Below, piece after piece: positions 4,727 to 62,125 of a DNA stretch of 64,000 bases. The first letter of the stretch is position 1; every line of letters starts with the position of its first letter. Origin of the DNA: Aurantiacibacter sp. D1-12 (GTDB taxonomy: Bacteria; Pseudomonadota; Alphaproteobacteria; Sphingomonadales; Sphingomonadaceae); contig NZ_JAPJZJ010000004.1 of the NCBI RefSeq assembly GCF_028858515.1, positions 1 to 64,000 of the forward strand. The letters run 5' to 3'. The notes beneath the pieces are model-generated. The model made no database searches. It was not told where the DNA came from and worked only from the letters and a program-made list of their open reading frames with translations. The translations under genes and the position numbers were made by a program.

Positions 4727-6204
4727 TGATGCGCGGCGGCACAATCATCGCTGTTCTGGCCGCGCTGATGCTATCGGCCTGCGCAAACGAGGTCGAGGTG
4801 GAGCCACCGCCGCGTGTCGAGGACCCTCCGGTCTTCGGTGATCAGATGTCGACCATGCAGGTGCCGCTCGAGATCTCGCTGGACGAGGTCCAGCGCGCGC
4901 TCGAACAACGCACTCCGCGGCGGCTTTGGCGGATGAACGAGCGCCGTAGTGACTGCATTCCCGCCACCCGCGTGCGCCCGCTCGGCCTTGAGTTCAACGT
5001 CACACCCAATATCGCCTGCACGATCATCGGAGAGGCAAGGCGCGGCAGCATCCGCTTGTCCGGAAGCGGCGACCGGCTGACGATCCGGTTGCCCATTAAT
5101 GCCACCGTGCGCGCCGAGGATATTGGCGACATCATCAGCGGCGAAACGGCCGATGCATCGGCCGATGTCGTGCTCAATGCCCGCCTTTCCATGACCGAAA
5201 ACTGGGGCCTGCGCGCCGATCTCGATCTCGACTACGCATGGTCTGAGGAGCCGGGCATCGATTTCCTGGGCCAGCGCATCAACTTTACCAGCAGGGTCGA
5301 TGAGGAGCTCGACAGCATCATCCGCGATATCGAACGCGAGCTGGAGCGAACCCTCGCGCGCATTTCTGCGCGCCCGCTGGTGGAGGACGCATGGCAAAAG
5401 GGCTTTACCACCGTCTCGCTCAACGCGGAGAACCCGCCCGCTTGGCTACGTATCACACCGCAACGGCTCGGCGTTACCGGATACAATGTGCGCGGACGCA
5501 ATCTGACGGTGAACGTGGCGCTGGAAGCACGCACAGAAACAATGATTGGCGAGCGTCCCGACCCCGCCCAACCCGGACCGCTGCCTACGCTGGCACGCGA
5601 TTTCGCCGGAAGCGGCATTCAGGTCGCAGTGCCCGTGCTGGTCGATTATGCCCAGCTGGAACCGGTGCTTCTGCGCGAATTGCGCGAGTTCGCGAAAGAC
5701 GGGATTACCCTGCCACGCGTGGGCATGGTCGATGCCGAGTTTTCAGCCGTCGAGATCTACGCGACGCAGGATCGCAGGCTAGCCGTGGGGATCACCGCGA
5801 CCGTAACCCCGCGCGAAGGTGTGGCGGCGCGCTATGGCGAGGCGGACGGACAGGTGTGGCTGACTGGAGAGCCGTACAACGCGCCCGACAGCGCCGTGAT
5901 CGCTATCCGCAATCTCGCCATCCACGGCGATACCGATCGCAACACCGTCGACCTGCTGATCGCATTGCTGGGTGACGAGCAGGTCCGCGCAACCATCGAA
6001 GCGGCTCTGGTCGGCGATTTCAGCGCGGATTACGAACGAATCATCGGCGATGCGCGCGAAGCGGTGAGCGAGCTGGAAAGTGGCCCCGTCACACTGAACC
6101 TCGAGATCGACGAAGTGCGTCACGGGCGCGTTCGCGCAACGGGCGCGGGGTTGTTCCTGCCGGTAGAAGTGACCGGCAGTGGAAGGTTGCGCGTTAGTTT
6201 GTAG
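4726..6204 (+). CDS. DUF4403-like lipoprotein
   Basis: 492 residues with a lipoprotein signal: hydrophobic segment and lipobox LSAC, with the lipidated Cys near residue 19. The mature part is a long beta-rich sequence with two related halves, and the segment around residues 90-100 (NVTPNIACTI) resembles the DUF4403 family, whose role is unknown. Probably anchored in the outer membrane facing the periplasm. It is coupled to panC by a one-base overlap, though no functional link is evident. Repeat element A begins only six bases after its stop codon. Confidence 0.72.
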   Translation: MMRGGTIIAVLAALMLSACANEVEVEPPPRVEDPPVFGDQMSTMQVPLEISLDEVQRALEQRTPRRLWRMNERRSDCIPATRVRPLGLEFNVTPNIACTIIGEARRGSIRLSGSGDRLTIRLPINATVRAEDIGDIISGETADASADVVLNARLSMTENWGLRADLDLDYAWSEEPGIDFLGQRINFTSRVDEELDSIIRDIERELERTLARISARPLVEDAWQKGFTTVSLNAENPPAWLRITPQRLGVTGYNVRGRNLTVNVALEARTETMIGERPDPAQPGPLPTLARDFAGSGIQVAVPVLVDYAQLEPVLLRELREFAKDGITLPRVGMVDAEFSAVEIYATQDRRLAVGITATVTPREGVAARYGEADGQVWLTGEPYNAPDSAVIAIRNLAIHGDTDRNTVDLLIALLGDEQVRATIEAALVGDFSADYERIIGDAREAVSELESGPVTLNLEIDEVRHGRVRATGAGLFLPVEVTGSGRLRVSL

Positions 6205-6209
6205 GATCT

Positions 6210-6484
6210 TTGTTTTTCGCCCCGACCTCCGTCAGTGCGTCCTCGCTAGACTATTTGCTTAACCTCAAGCGCCGGCGTTCGCCCTGGCGGGCCGTGCTCC
6301 GCAACACGGTAGTTGGCTTACTCCCGGTTCTTGGAACAATCTGTCAGCCTTGCGCTGAAATCGGGCGCGACTAGCGCTCGACAGAGCCCGACTGGGCGAC
6401 CGCAGGTGCCTCGAAACGAAGGCATCAGCCGAGTGGAGAGAATAGCACCGAGGACGAAAGCGCGGAGGCGCTTTCGAAAAACAA
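6210..6484. repeat. Composite palindromic repeat, copy A (both arms)
   Basis: 275 bp between the DUF4403-like gene and tRNA-Gly, bounded by perfect 10-bp inverted ends TTGTTTTTCG (6210-6219) and CGAAAAACAA (6475-6484). The right end carries a hairpin of 9+9 bases (6455-6463 with 6468-6476) around loop GGAG. The left end carries the same structure inverted (6218-6226 with 6231-6239) with one mismatch and one G-U pair. The middle aligns with copy D in reverse orientation (shared blocks CTCCG..ACACGGTA, CCCGGTTCTTGG and GGGCGCGACTAGCGC). The short open frame 6313-6498 is repeat-derived. This element fills the roughly 300-base gap between genes. Confidence 0.85.
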
Positions 6485-6511
6485 GGATTCCTAAATAACC
6501 GAAGGGGATTT

Positions 6512-6585
6512 TGGAGCGGGTAAGGGGAATCGAACCCCTCTAGCTAGCTTGGAAGGCTAGAGCATTACCACTATGCTATACCCGC
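6512..6585 (-). tRNA. tRNA-Gly (anticodon TCC)
   Basis: Cloverleaf on the minus strand: acceptor GCGGGTA pairs with TACCCGC, the anticodon stem CTAGC/GCTAG encloses loop CTTCCAA with anticodon TCC, and the T loop reads GGTTCGATTCC. The 3' CCA is encoded (complement at 6512-6514). Repeat element A ends 27 bases beyond the 3' end. Confidence 0.96.
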
Positions 6586-21447: not shown

Positions 21448-21597
21448 TTGTTTTTCGCGCCTGGGGCCTGGCGCACTCTCTACCGCGTCGCAGAGTACGG
21501 CCCAAAGGGCCGCAAGGGCGACTGCCCGCCCGCAGCGGACGCAGCTTGCCTGCGCATCTAGCGAGGACGCATCGACGGAGGTCGATGCGAAAAACAA
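21448..21597. repeat. Composite palindromic repeat, copy B (one full arm)
   Basis: 150 bp between the YdbS-like start and tRNA-Thr with inverted ends TTGTTTTTCG (21448-21457) and CGAAAAACAA (21588-21597). The right arm contains, in order, hairpin CGGCCC/GGGCCG (21498-21512), CGCAG/CTGCG (21540-21554) and the terminal 9-bp hairpin CGCATCGAC/GTCGATGCG around loop GGAG (21568-21589). The left arm is reduced to a short imperfect palindrome. The gap from 21390 to 21610 otherwise holds nothing. Confidence 0.85.
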
Positions 21598-21610: not shown

Positions 21611-21685
21611 TGGTGCCACGAGAGAGAATTGAACTCTCGGCCTCACCCTTACCAAGGGTGCGCTCTACCACTGAGCTACCGCGGC
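21611..21685 (-). tRNA. tRNA-Thr (anticodon GGT)
   Basis: Minus-strand cloverleaf: acceptor GCCGCGG pairs with a 3' strand ending TCGTGGC, D arm TAGCTCAGTGGTAGAGC, anticodon stem CACCC/GGGTG with loop TTGGTAA (anticodon GGT), T arm GAGAGTTCAATTCTCTC. CCA is encoded (complement 21611-21613). Repeat copy B ends about 13 bases beyond the 3' end. Confidence 0.96.
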
Positions 21686-21821: not shown

Positions 21822-22061
21822 ATGAGCAAAGACGAGACCCGAGAAGAACGCCTCGCCGCCAAACTGCGCGAGAACCTGCGCCGCCGCAAATCGCAAGCCA
21901 AGGCGATGTCGGATAGCAATGCAAACGAGCCGCAGGCTCGCAAGGGCGACCGCCCGCCCGCAGCGGACGCAGCTTGCTGCGTGCCTAGCGAGGACGCGAG
22001 GACGGAGGTCCTCGCGAAAGACAAGCCCGATTCCCTTTCCAAAGAGAGCAAGGACAGCTAA
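21822..22061 (+). CDS. Small charged protein with in-frame repeat insertion
   Basis: 79 residues. The first 30 residues are highly charged and helical (KDETREERLAAKLRENLRRR), the last ten (SLSKESKDS region) are also polar, and I recall similar small sphingomonad proteins without the middle part, though this is not verified. Residues about 35-68 are encoded by repeat copy C (EPQARKGDRPPAAD and following), in frame. The protein may tolerate the insertion because it is disordered. The function is unknown. It precedes gpmA by 45 bases on the same strand. Confidence 0.65.
   Translation: MSKDETREERLAAKLRENLRRRKSQAKAMSDSNANEPQARKGDRPPAADAACCVPSEDARTEVLAKDKPDSLSKESKDS
21926..22024. repeat. Palindromic repeat, copy C (single arm, intragenic)
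   Basis: About 99 bp homologous to the right arms of copies B and D and lying inside the small plus-strand gene. It contains CGAGCC/GGCTCG (21926-21940), ACGCAG/CTGCGT (21967-21982) and the terminal hairpin CGCGAGGAC/GTCCTCGCG around GGAG (21995-22016), ending in CGAAAGACAA. All three stems differ in sequence from copies B and D at paired positions while pairing is kept. Confidence 0.85.
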
Positions 22062-61038: not shown

Positions 61039-61325
61039 GTTTGTTTTTCGAAGCCGCCTCCGCGGGTTCGTCCTCGGTGCTGTTCGCTTCGCTCCGCTAC
61101 GCGGCACCTGCGGTCGCCCGGTCGGGCTCTGTCGTGCGCTAGTCGCGCCCGATGCCAGTACAACGCTGATAAATCGCGCCAAGAACCGGGTGCGAATTGC
61201 TTACCGTGTCGCGGAGCTCGCTCGGCGAATGCCGAGCGCAAGGGCGACCGCCCGCCCGCAGCGGGCGCAGCTTGCCTGCGCATCTAGCGAGGACGCATCG
61301 ACGGAGGTCGATGCAAAAAACAAAC
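61039..61325. repeat. Composite palindromic repeat, copy D (both arms)
   Basis: 287 bp with perfect 10-bp inverted ends GTTTGTTTTT (61039-61048) and AAAAACAAAC (61316-61325). The left arm, read on the minus strand, matches the right arm of copy A; the right arm matches B and C. Hairpins: CGAAGCCGC/GCGGGTTCG around CTCC with one mismatch (61049-61070), CGCTCGGC/GCCGAGCG (61219-61238), GCGCAG/CTGCGC (61265-61281), and the terminal GGAG-loop hairpin. The last base is the first base of the thiG stop-codon complement. The gap 60946-61324 otherwise holds nothing. Confidence 0.87.
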
Positions 61326-62125
61326 TAGATCAAACCCGCCAACGGCGAACTCGGATCGGCATACTTTCTGCGCCCCATACGGCCCGCAAGGTAGGCTTCG
61401 CGCCCTGCTTCGACCGAGAGCTTCATTGCGCGAGCCATGCGGATCGGGTCTTTGGCCTCGGCAATGGCGGTGTTCATCAACACGCCGTCGCAGCCGAGCT
61501 CCATAGCCACCGCGGCATCAGAAGCCGTGCCAACTCCGGCATCGACCAAGACCGGCACTTTCGCACCTTCAACGATGAGCCGGATCGTAACCTGGTTCTG
61601 GATTCCGAGACCCGAGCCGATGGGTGCACCCAGGGGCATGATCGCTACTGCACCCGCTTCTTCGAGCTGCTGCGCGGCGATCGGATCGTCGACGCAATAG
61701 ACCATCGGCTTGAAGCCTTCATTGGCGAGCACTTCGCATGCGCGGATCGTCTCGACCATGTTGGGGTAGAGCGTGCGCGCTTCGCCCAGCACTTCGAGCT
61801 TAACGAGGTCCCAGCCGCCAGCCTCACGTGCCAGCCGCAGCGTACGGATCGCATCGTCTGCTGTGAAGCACCCCGCCGTATTCGGCAGATAGGTTGTCTT
61901 CTTGGGGTCGATGTAGTCCATCAGCACGGGTTGGCTGGGATCGGAAATATTCACCCGGCGAACCGCCACGGTGACGATTTCTGCGCCTGATGCCTCGACG
62001 GCTGCAGCGTTCTGCGCAAAGTCCTTGTATTTGCCGGTGCCCACGATCAGGCGGCTGTTGAAGCGCTGCCCAGCGACTTCCCAGCTGTCATCGGTATTGT
62101 TCGGATTCGTTTCTGCTTCGCTCAT
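61325..62125 (-). CDS. thiG: Thiazole synthase
   Basis: 266 residues from ATG 62125; TTG 62161 is an in-frame alternative nearer thiS. Motifs are [12 protein letters not shown] near residue 25, the Schiff-base Lys in LVKLEVLGE near 107, and [17 protein letters not shown] near 195. It forms the thiazole moiety of thiamine with sulfur from ThiS. Repeat D abuts its stop codon. Confidence 0.93.

Follow-up and report, generated by a model that had tools for sequence, protein, structure and literature searches.

The window, by which we mean the whole stretch of 64,000 nucleotides analysed here, contains four copies of a palindromic repeat (Table 1). Copy 1 lies in the spacer between a DUF4403 gene and a tRNA-Gly gene, copy 2 is adjacent to a tRNA-Thr gene, copy 3 is inside a small ORF, and copy 4 follows thiG. 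All four places had been named in the earlier note, and their coordinates and hairpins were confirmed. Six terminal hairpins (6218-6239, 6455-6476, 21568-21589, 21995-22016, and the left and right ends of 61041-61323) pair at 8, 9, 9, 9, 8, and 8 of 9 positions, respectively, and fall into five stem types, as had been claimed. Two of the ends carry one mismatch (TTGTCTTTCG and TTGTTTTTTG). The repeat is present in each of the four places, but the third copy (21914-22024) lacks a left end and consists of a solo arm, and the copy starting at 21448 carries an arm together with a left-end hairpin of a different kind.

Table 1. Repeat copies, their arms, and adjacent genes in the window
Feature	Position	Strand	Basis
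Copy 1, inverted arm pair between the DUF4403 gene stop (6204) and the tRNA-Gly 3' end	6210..6484	.	hairpins and model R1
Copy 1, type B arm (P1, P2, P3, CGAGGA, stem9-GGAG-stem9, AAAAACAA)	6361..6484	+	covariance model R1, E 1.4e-20
Copy 1, type A arm, interior diverged, terminal hairpin 6218-6239	6210..6308	-	R1, E 2.4e-10
tRNA-Gly(TCC), 3' end toward copy 1	6512..6585	-	
Copy 2, left end with a different hairpin; 13 bp from the tRNA-Thr 3' end	21448..21597	+	arm 21492-21597, E 4.7e-22
tRNA-Thr(GGT), 3' end toward copy 2	21611..21685	-	
Small ORF (79 aa including the extension by copy 3)	21822..22061	+	no Pfam match
Copy 3, solo type A arm, in frame within the small ORF	21919..22024	+	R1, E 3.0e-20
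Copy 4, inverted pair immediately after the thiG stop codon	61041..61323	.	hairpins and R1
Copy 4, type B arm	61041..61152	-	R1, E 7.2e-22
Copy 4, type A arm, outer end abutting the thiG stop	61219..61323	+	R1, E 5.0e-22
thiG, 3' end occupied or empty depending on the relative	61325..62125	-	Pfam ThiG E 5.9e-110

The repeat unit is a single hairpin arm of ~110 bp, not an element of 275 bp, and it occurs either solo or in outward-facing inverted pairs; in the loci examined, 91 solo arms and 30 pairs were counted. In unit orientation, the arm consists of the P1 hairpin, GCAAG, the P2 hairpin (SSC-GANY-GSS), CC-GCA-G, P3, C-GA-GG-AC, the terminal hairpin stem9-GGAG-stem9, and nAAAACAA. The outer end is formed by TTGTTTT plus the terminal hairpin; the inner boundary is not sharply defined and was placed at a constant distance. 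Conserved features are the CCGCAG and CGAGGA motifs, the GGAN loop, and the covarying stems, and two kinds of P3, ending in CTAG or GCAC, distinguish type A and type B arms. The CGAGGA head was found in 168 and the GGAG loop in 165 of 174 arms, a set that is biased since these motifs were part of the gathering query; at least 7 of 9 stem pairs were required of each arm, and a few spurious ones are included. Genes were called with our own codon scorer throughout; by these calls, some of which are doubtful here, five of 151 arms lie inside genes.

Stem variation was analysed in 113 arms collected with an exact pattern that leaves six variable stem positions unconstrained. The earlier note had considered that a lack of covariation, or chance palindromes without shared ends, would speak against the repeat; in these arms, 666 of 678 cells are paired, whereas re-dealt stems average 406 paired cells and never exceed 448 (2,000 shuffles, phylogeny ignored). 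All six positions are paired in 102 of the 113 arms, and 43 distinct 6-mers are represented. In the alignment, 98.3% of 1774 cells are paired vs. 72.6% after shuffling, phylogeny being ignored as well, and pairing falls to 26–46% when the partners are slid by 1–3 columns. The number of double-change cells is 391 vs. 133 in the shuffles, none of which (0/500) reaches 391; the number of pairs with any double change shows no excess (13 vs. 12.7 shuffled, 351/500). P2 and P3 also covary, and the CC/GG pairs and the first G-C pair of P3 are conserved in sequence. The covariation of the stems is decisive. An origin from chance GC-rich palindromes without common descent might be suggested by the other short hairpins that are common in the window, where 18 matches to perfect stems of at least 8 bp were found with alternative loops counted. 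This explanation is refuted by the covariation in the 113 arms and in the alignment, by the 43 model-matched arms described below, and by the excess of TTGTTTTTCG, which occurs eight times in the window with up to one mismatch (shuffle mean 2.7, 0/100 shuffles reach eight); one of these occurrences (13050) is not an element end. The covariation fits the proposal of either selection on structure or structure-preserving copying: selection or template switching may keep the pairing, and DNA or RNA may be the acting form.

The covariance-model search of the host and its relatives, proposed earlier as a check, was carried out with model R1, built from 89 arms picked by eye from the 174, with long P3 inserts, close duplicates, and poor ends omitted. 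With this model, 43 arms at E<0.01 were detected in the window's genome, which is 2.57 Mb in size. Matches to R1 were present in 89 of 298 family genomes (36 of 96 genera) and in 77 of 296 genomes of the order draw, all belonging to the same family, whereas five of 385 class genomes matched; four of the latter are in the family, and the one outside it has a single weak match (E 1.7e-5). In the family, order, and class searches, the best ≤12 or ≤9 candidates per genome were scored. A pattern scan of named genomes revealed at least 109 stretches, and among the matches listed, 78 of 80 titles are Erythrobacteraceae, Sphingomonadaceae, Sphingomonadales, Alphaproteobacteria, or their genera; the two remaining titles refer to a Gammaproteobacteria MAG and a Nostoc assembly, both probably the result of mis-binning. 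The arm is a non-coding hairpin element scattered across bacteria of the Erythrobacter group and restricted to the family apart from the one weak match. Several loci are orthologous to each other (neighbour families of up to eight loci), so the arms are not all independent. With two queries, no match was found in 72,556 plasmid records. Three IMG/VR contigs (L242, L243, and L244) each hold an arm, in either phage or host DNA, and the genome of another genus contains a tandem cluster of three weaker arms (G041:C1:2374894-2375730).

No named family had been recognised for the repeat before, and this agrees with the present searches. At gathering scores, Rfam matched only two tRNAs across the whole window, and nothing up to E=1 was obtained for 6150-6510, which includes copy 1. 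The available text of publications on Erythrobacter and Sphingomonadales repeats, structured RNA, Rickettsia elements, and template switching yielded no description of the arm family. In the parts available, PMC3733652 notes intragenic REPs in 'E. lithoralis' without giving their sequence in the text, and a table in PMC12306157 lists how many REPs Erythrobacter cryptus has; parts of the arm family may thus have been counted previously.

The element is mobile, as orthologous places are occupied or empty across the relatives. Behind thiG, an arm is present in 11 of 28 readable orthologous places and absent in 17; ten of the arms were detected by the scanner, and the same ten plus L212 by the model, in a sample comprising the loci of 29 of 39 relatives, one of which was unreadable. 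At the tRNA-Thr place, 16 of 20 loci match at E 4.2e-4 or better, and among the four unmatched loci, the sequence available for L171 is too short for a decision. At the tRNA-Gly place, beyond which the genes vary by species, a clear match was obtained in two of 16 loci (L183 and L188); L189 has a weak match (E 0.042) ~190 bp from tRNA-Gly.

The small ORF at 21822-22061 encodes a conserved small protein (REERLAAxLRxNLxRRKxQ) between the tRNA-Thr gene and a histidine phosphatase gene. Copy 3 adds ~30 residues to it in frame: orthologous ORFs without an arm mostly have 43–65 aa vs. 79 aa in the window. An arm was found in one of 20 orthologous ORFs and is missing from the other 19, including L165 and L176. 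The occupied one (G213, locus L245) contains a type B arm, also in frame, in the same ORF where the window has a type A arm; this can be explained either by one old insertion with a later change of type or by two insertions. In L229 (1275-2609), an in-frame arm is located at the start of a predicted ORF, and the peptide resembles the window's small-ORF segment; this arm probably lies upstream of the true start.

The position of the arms relative to genes is polar. Directly behind a stop codon, a terminator-like hairpin, or a tRNA lie 78 of 151 outer ends vs. three of 89 inner ends of solo arms (two at stops, none at a tRNA, one at a terminator-like hairpin), and 4.4% of random intergenic places abut any such 3' end. 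Of the 151 outer ends, 52 face a stop codon at a distance of ≤10 bp, 11 are ≤40 bp away from the 3' end of a tRNA (six of these within 3 bp), and 15 follow a terminator-like hairpin with a T-rich tail. The 52 abutted stops represent 29 gene families, and in the abutting copies, the base of the terminal hairpin is ~9–16 nt after the stop codon. Where the gap leaves 30 bp of slack or more, 76 outer ends face the 3' end of a gene, and 35 of them lie ≤10 bp away from it, whereas uniform placement predicts 7.6 (maximum 19 in 20,000 simulations); for the inner ends of solo arms, the respective count is two of 38 vs. 2.5 expected. When the inner boundary is shifted from −40 to +80 bp, the inner count does not exceed six of 89, compared with 28 at the boundary and a maximum of 32 for the outer ends of the same arms (stops only). 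Erosion of the spacers as the sole reason for abutment was rejected because abutment is not seen at the inner ends. That REPs prefer gene 3' ends is already known (PMC3733652); new is the polarity, i.e., the difference between the outer and inner ends, which is absent from the available text of that paper.

The same distribution may be considered from the point of view of a cis-acting RNA in the 3'-UTR, whose terminal hairpin would attenuate translation, stall terminating ribosomes, or block 3' exonucleases, the pairs being kept by selection on the RNA. The clustering of outer, and not inner, ends close to gene 3' ends is in line with it, as are the over-representation of convergent gene pairs (53 of 133 arms vs. 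71 of 400 gaps) and the folding of three window arms, which on the unit strand fold better than shuffles (z −3.05, −3.57, and −1.86). However, it is the non-unit strand that is transcribed with the gene in abutting copies, and this strand folds less well (z −1.42, −3.32, and −0.58), n=3 being too small to decide. Selection on a one-strand RNA should also favour one type of mismatch, whereas G-T and A-C mismatches are about equal: 25 vs. 21 in the 174 arms, 12 vs. 8 in an unfiltered set, and 4 vs. 4 in stop-abutting arms. An excess of G-T over A-C (~12 vs. 3), regarded as an RNA-strand signature in the 89-arm alignment, was not supported in the larger sets. Moreover, the outer ends lying behind terminator-like hairpins and tRNAs and the lack of the element at the same gene end in many relatives are at odds with a 3'-UTR function, which we consider rather unlikely.

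Sequence turnover is faster in the terminal stems than elsewhere in the arm. Two elements of the window's genome can be aligned over ~220 bp with a single gap as the only difference, but they have different B-end stems and P3 hairpins. Similarly, the copies behind tRNA-Gly and tRNA-Thr in G307 share a nearly identical interior of ~230 bp, with different end stems. Among pairs of arms with at least eight stem pairs, seven of the eight that are ≥97% alike upstream differ at 1–4 of the nine letters on the 5' side of the stem, and 20 of 24 that are 94–97% alike differ there at one or more letters. In two copies of the window's genome (L008 ~1584-1619 and L233 ~1467-1502), the loop is inverted to CTCC while the stem is kept, a footprint expected of template switching. 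The loop also varies between genomes: GGAG accounts for 30 of 40 hairpins in G000, and GGAT for six of seven in G307, four of four in G315, four of four in G319, and three of three in G303, with few hairpins in each of these. The contrast between interiors and ends would also be explained by gene conversion of the interiors between older copies.

These observations raise the possibility that no structural selection is involved, and that hairpin template switching (quasipalindrome correction) and gene conversion both keep the stems perfect and rewrite them. Available parts of the literature report that template switching creates and mends hairpins (PMC8794818) and inverts spacers (PMC8604942). 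The replacement of entire end stems between otherwise near-identical copies, the inverted loop, and the mismatches without strand bias are consistent with such a process. On the other hand, template switching alone does not account for the conservation of the CGAGGA head, the GGAG loop, and the CC/GG and first G-C pairs of P3, nor for the covariation of P2 and P3, and the conserved motifs indicate that something selects the arm. As a complete explanation, it is possible but doubtful.

The search for a mobilising protein concentrated on the RAYT transposase (Y1_Tnp). It is absent from the window's genome, was detected in three of 40 genus genomes and 24 of 149 family genomes, and is missing from most of the hosts examined; none of the 15 RAYT loci retrieved holds an arm up to E=1. 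RAYT was accordingly rejected as a mobiliser linked to the arms. In addition, two stretches of the window's genome (4.0 and 6.5 kb) were considered as an autonomous version with widely spaced ends; when their ORFs were read by eye, no transposase was recognised. As for target duplications, 42 paired elements show no excess of direct repeats: those of 4 nt occur in four (3.5 expected), of 5 nt in one (0.8 expected), and of 6–9 nt in none. CsrA/Rsm decoy RNAs carry GGA in their loops; a function of the arm as a CsrA sponge was rejected, since CsrA was found in none of 298 family genomes.

A resemblance to REP/BIME, MITE, or Rickettsia palindromic elements in style had been pointed out earlier, and it is apt for an element that is dispersed, mobile, and in frame within an ORF, with MITE the weakest analogy because there is no target duplication. 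Like MITEs, the arm is short, non-autonomous, and has inverted ends in its paired form; unlike them, it has no relative with a transposase among those found, and solo arms outnumber pairs. The likeness to Rickettsia palindromic elements concerns the insertion habit, i.e., the lengthening of a small protein by an in-frame arm, which is of type A in the window's species and of type B in G213; otherwise, the arms are mainly intergenic, with one clear in-ORF case. With GTAG REP/BIME, the arm shares non-coding palindromes, inverted pairs, intergenic location, and presumed mobilisation in trans. It differs from them in having a CGAGGA foot instead of the unpaired GTAG, in unit length (~110 bp vs. 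20–40 bp), and in the lack of a RAYT gene flanked by the arm.

The CGTC REPs of alpha-proteobacteria (Di Nocera et al. 2013, PMC3733652) are described in the text available as having an 8–9 bp stem and a 4–5 nt loop, forming inverted dimers, lying at convergent or tandem gene ends ≤20 bp from the stop, including intragenic copies, and having no dedicated transposase. The arm corresponds to this description in its 9-bp stem and 4-nt loop, inverted dimers, 3'-end location, intragenic copy, and alpha-proteobacterial host; the lack of a dedicated transposase may be a further likeness, the search having covered RAYT. At the same time, its hairpin is the end of a ~110-bp unit with further covarying hairpins, CCGCAG, and CGAGGA; its outermost stem pairs are C-G/G-C and not A-T; and its tail is AAAACAA and not CCA. 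The arm has GACG 5' of the hairpin, where the CGTC family, as defined from that text, has CGTC, so by our reading the tag polarity is opposite. Membership of the arm in a known REP super-family, whether GTAG/RAYT or CGTC, is thus already disfavoured and appears unlikely. As the arm lacks defining features of the GTAG, CGTC, and MITE families, it can be said to work like a REP dimer without being filed as one, and the observations fit a family larger and more structured than those in the accessible text of PMC3733652.

Our preferred reading, which we regard as probable, is that the arms constitute a REP/BIME-like family of non-coding palindromic mobile elements of a larger type, apparently unnamed and moved in trans by a putative factor. 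A trans-acting protein would recognise the folded arm by its loop and CGAGGA, probably in the form of a DNA hairpin or cruciform, and the copies would persist mainly where nothing breaks, behind gene ends. Pairing could be kept by this structure-dependent recognition, aided by recombination between copies and by hairpin template switching, which would rewrite both sides of the stem simultaneously. Effects on the adjacent mRNA ends may occur locally but would not be the main cause of spread. Against this reading, it should be noted that the RAYT search and the ORFs of two stretches read by eye did not reveal a mobilising protein, that the polar abutment on stop codons is equally expected from a 3'-UTR function, and that about half of the outer ends (73/151) abut none of the stops, tRNAs, or terminator-like hairpins. 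A more far-reaching reading is that insertion always occurs in one orientation at the 3' end of a transcription unit (stop codon, terminator T-run, or tRNA 3' end), by a mechanism that reads the transcript end or its R-loop, and that on moving, the element rewrites the terminal hairpin, which would act as a self-complementary cassette; this is speculative and, on balance, improbable.

The arm family adds a large, highly structured, and apparently unnamed member to the REP-like repeats of alpha-proteobacteria. It poses two puzzles: the end stems evolve more rapidly than the remainder of the arm and still stay almost perfectly paired, through either selection or template switching, and only one end of the unit docks at gene 3' ends. 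Many sequenced relatives with occupied and empty places make both of them traceable stepwise.

Two further features of the hairpins can be mentioned. At the tRNA-Gly place of G307 (L183), the terminal hairpin alone is duplicated in tandem, with two different stems. In L010, L012, L032, L043, and L068, other hairpin repeats, of the CCCCGGACTTGATCCGGGG and CCCTGAGCTTGCCGAAGGG types, are nested inside the P3 loops.
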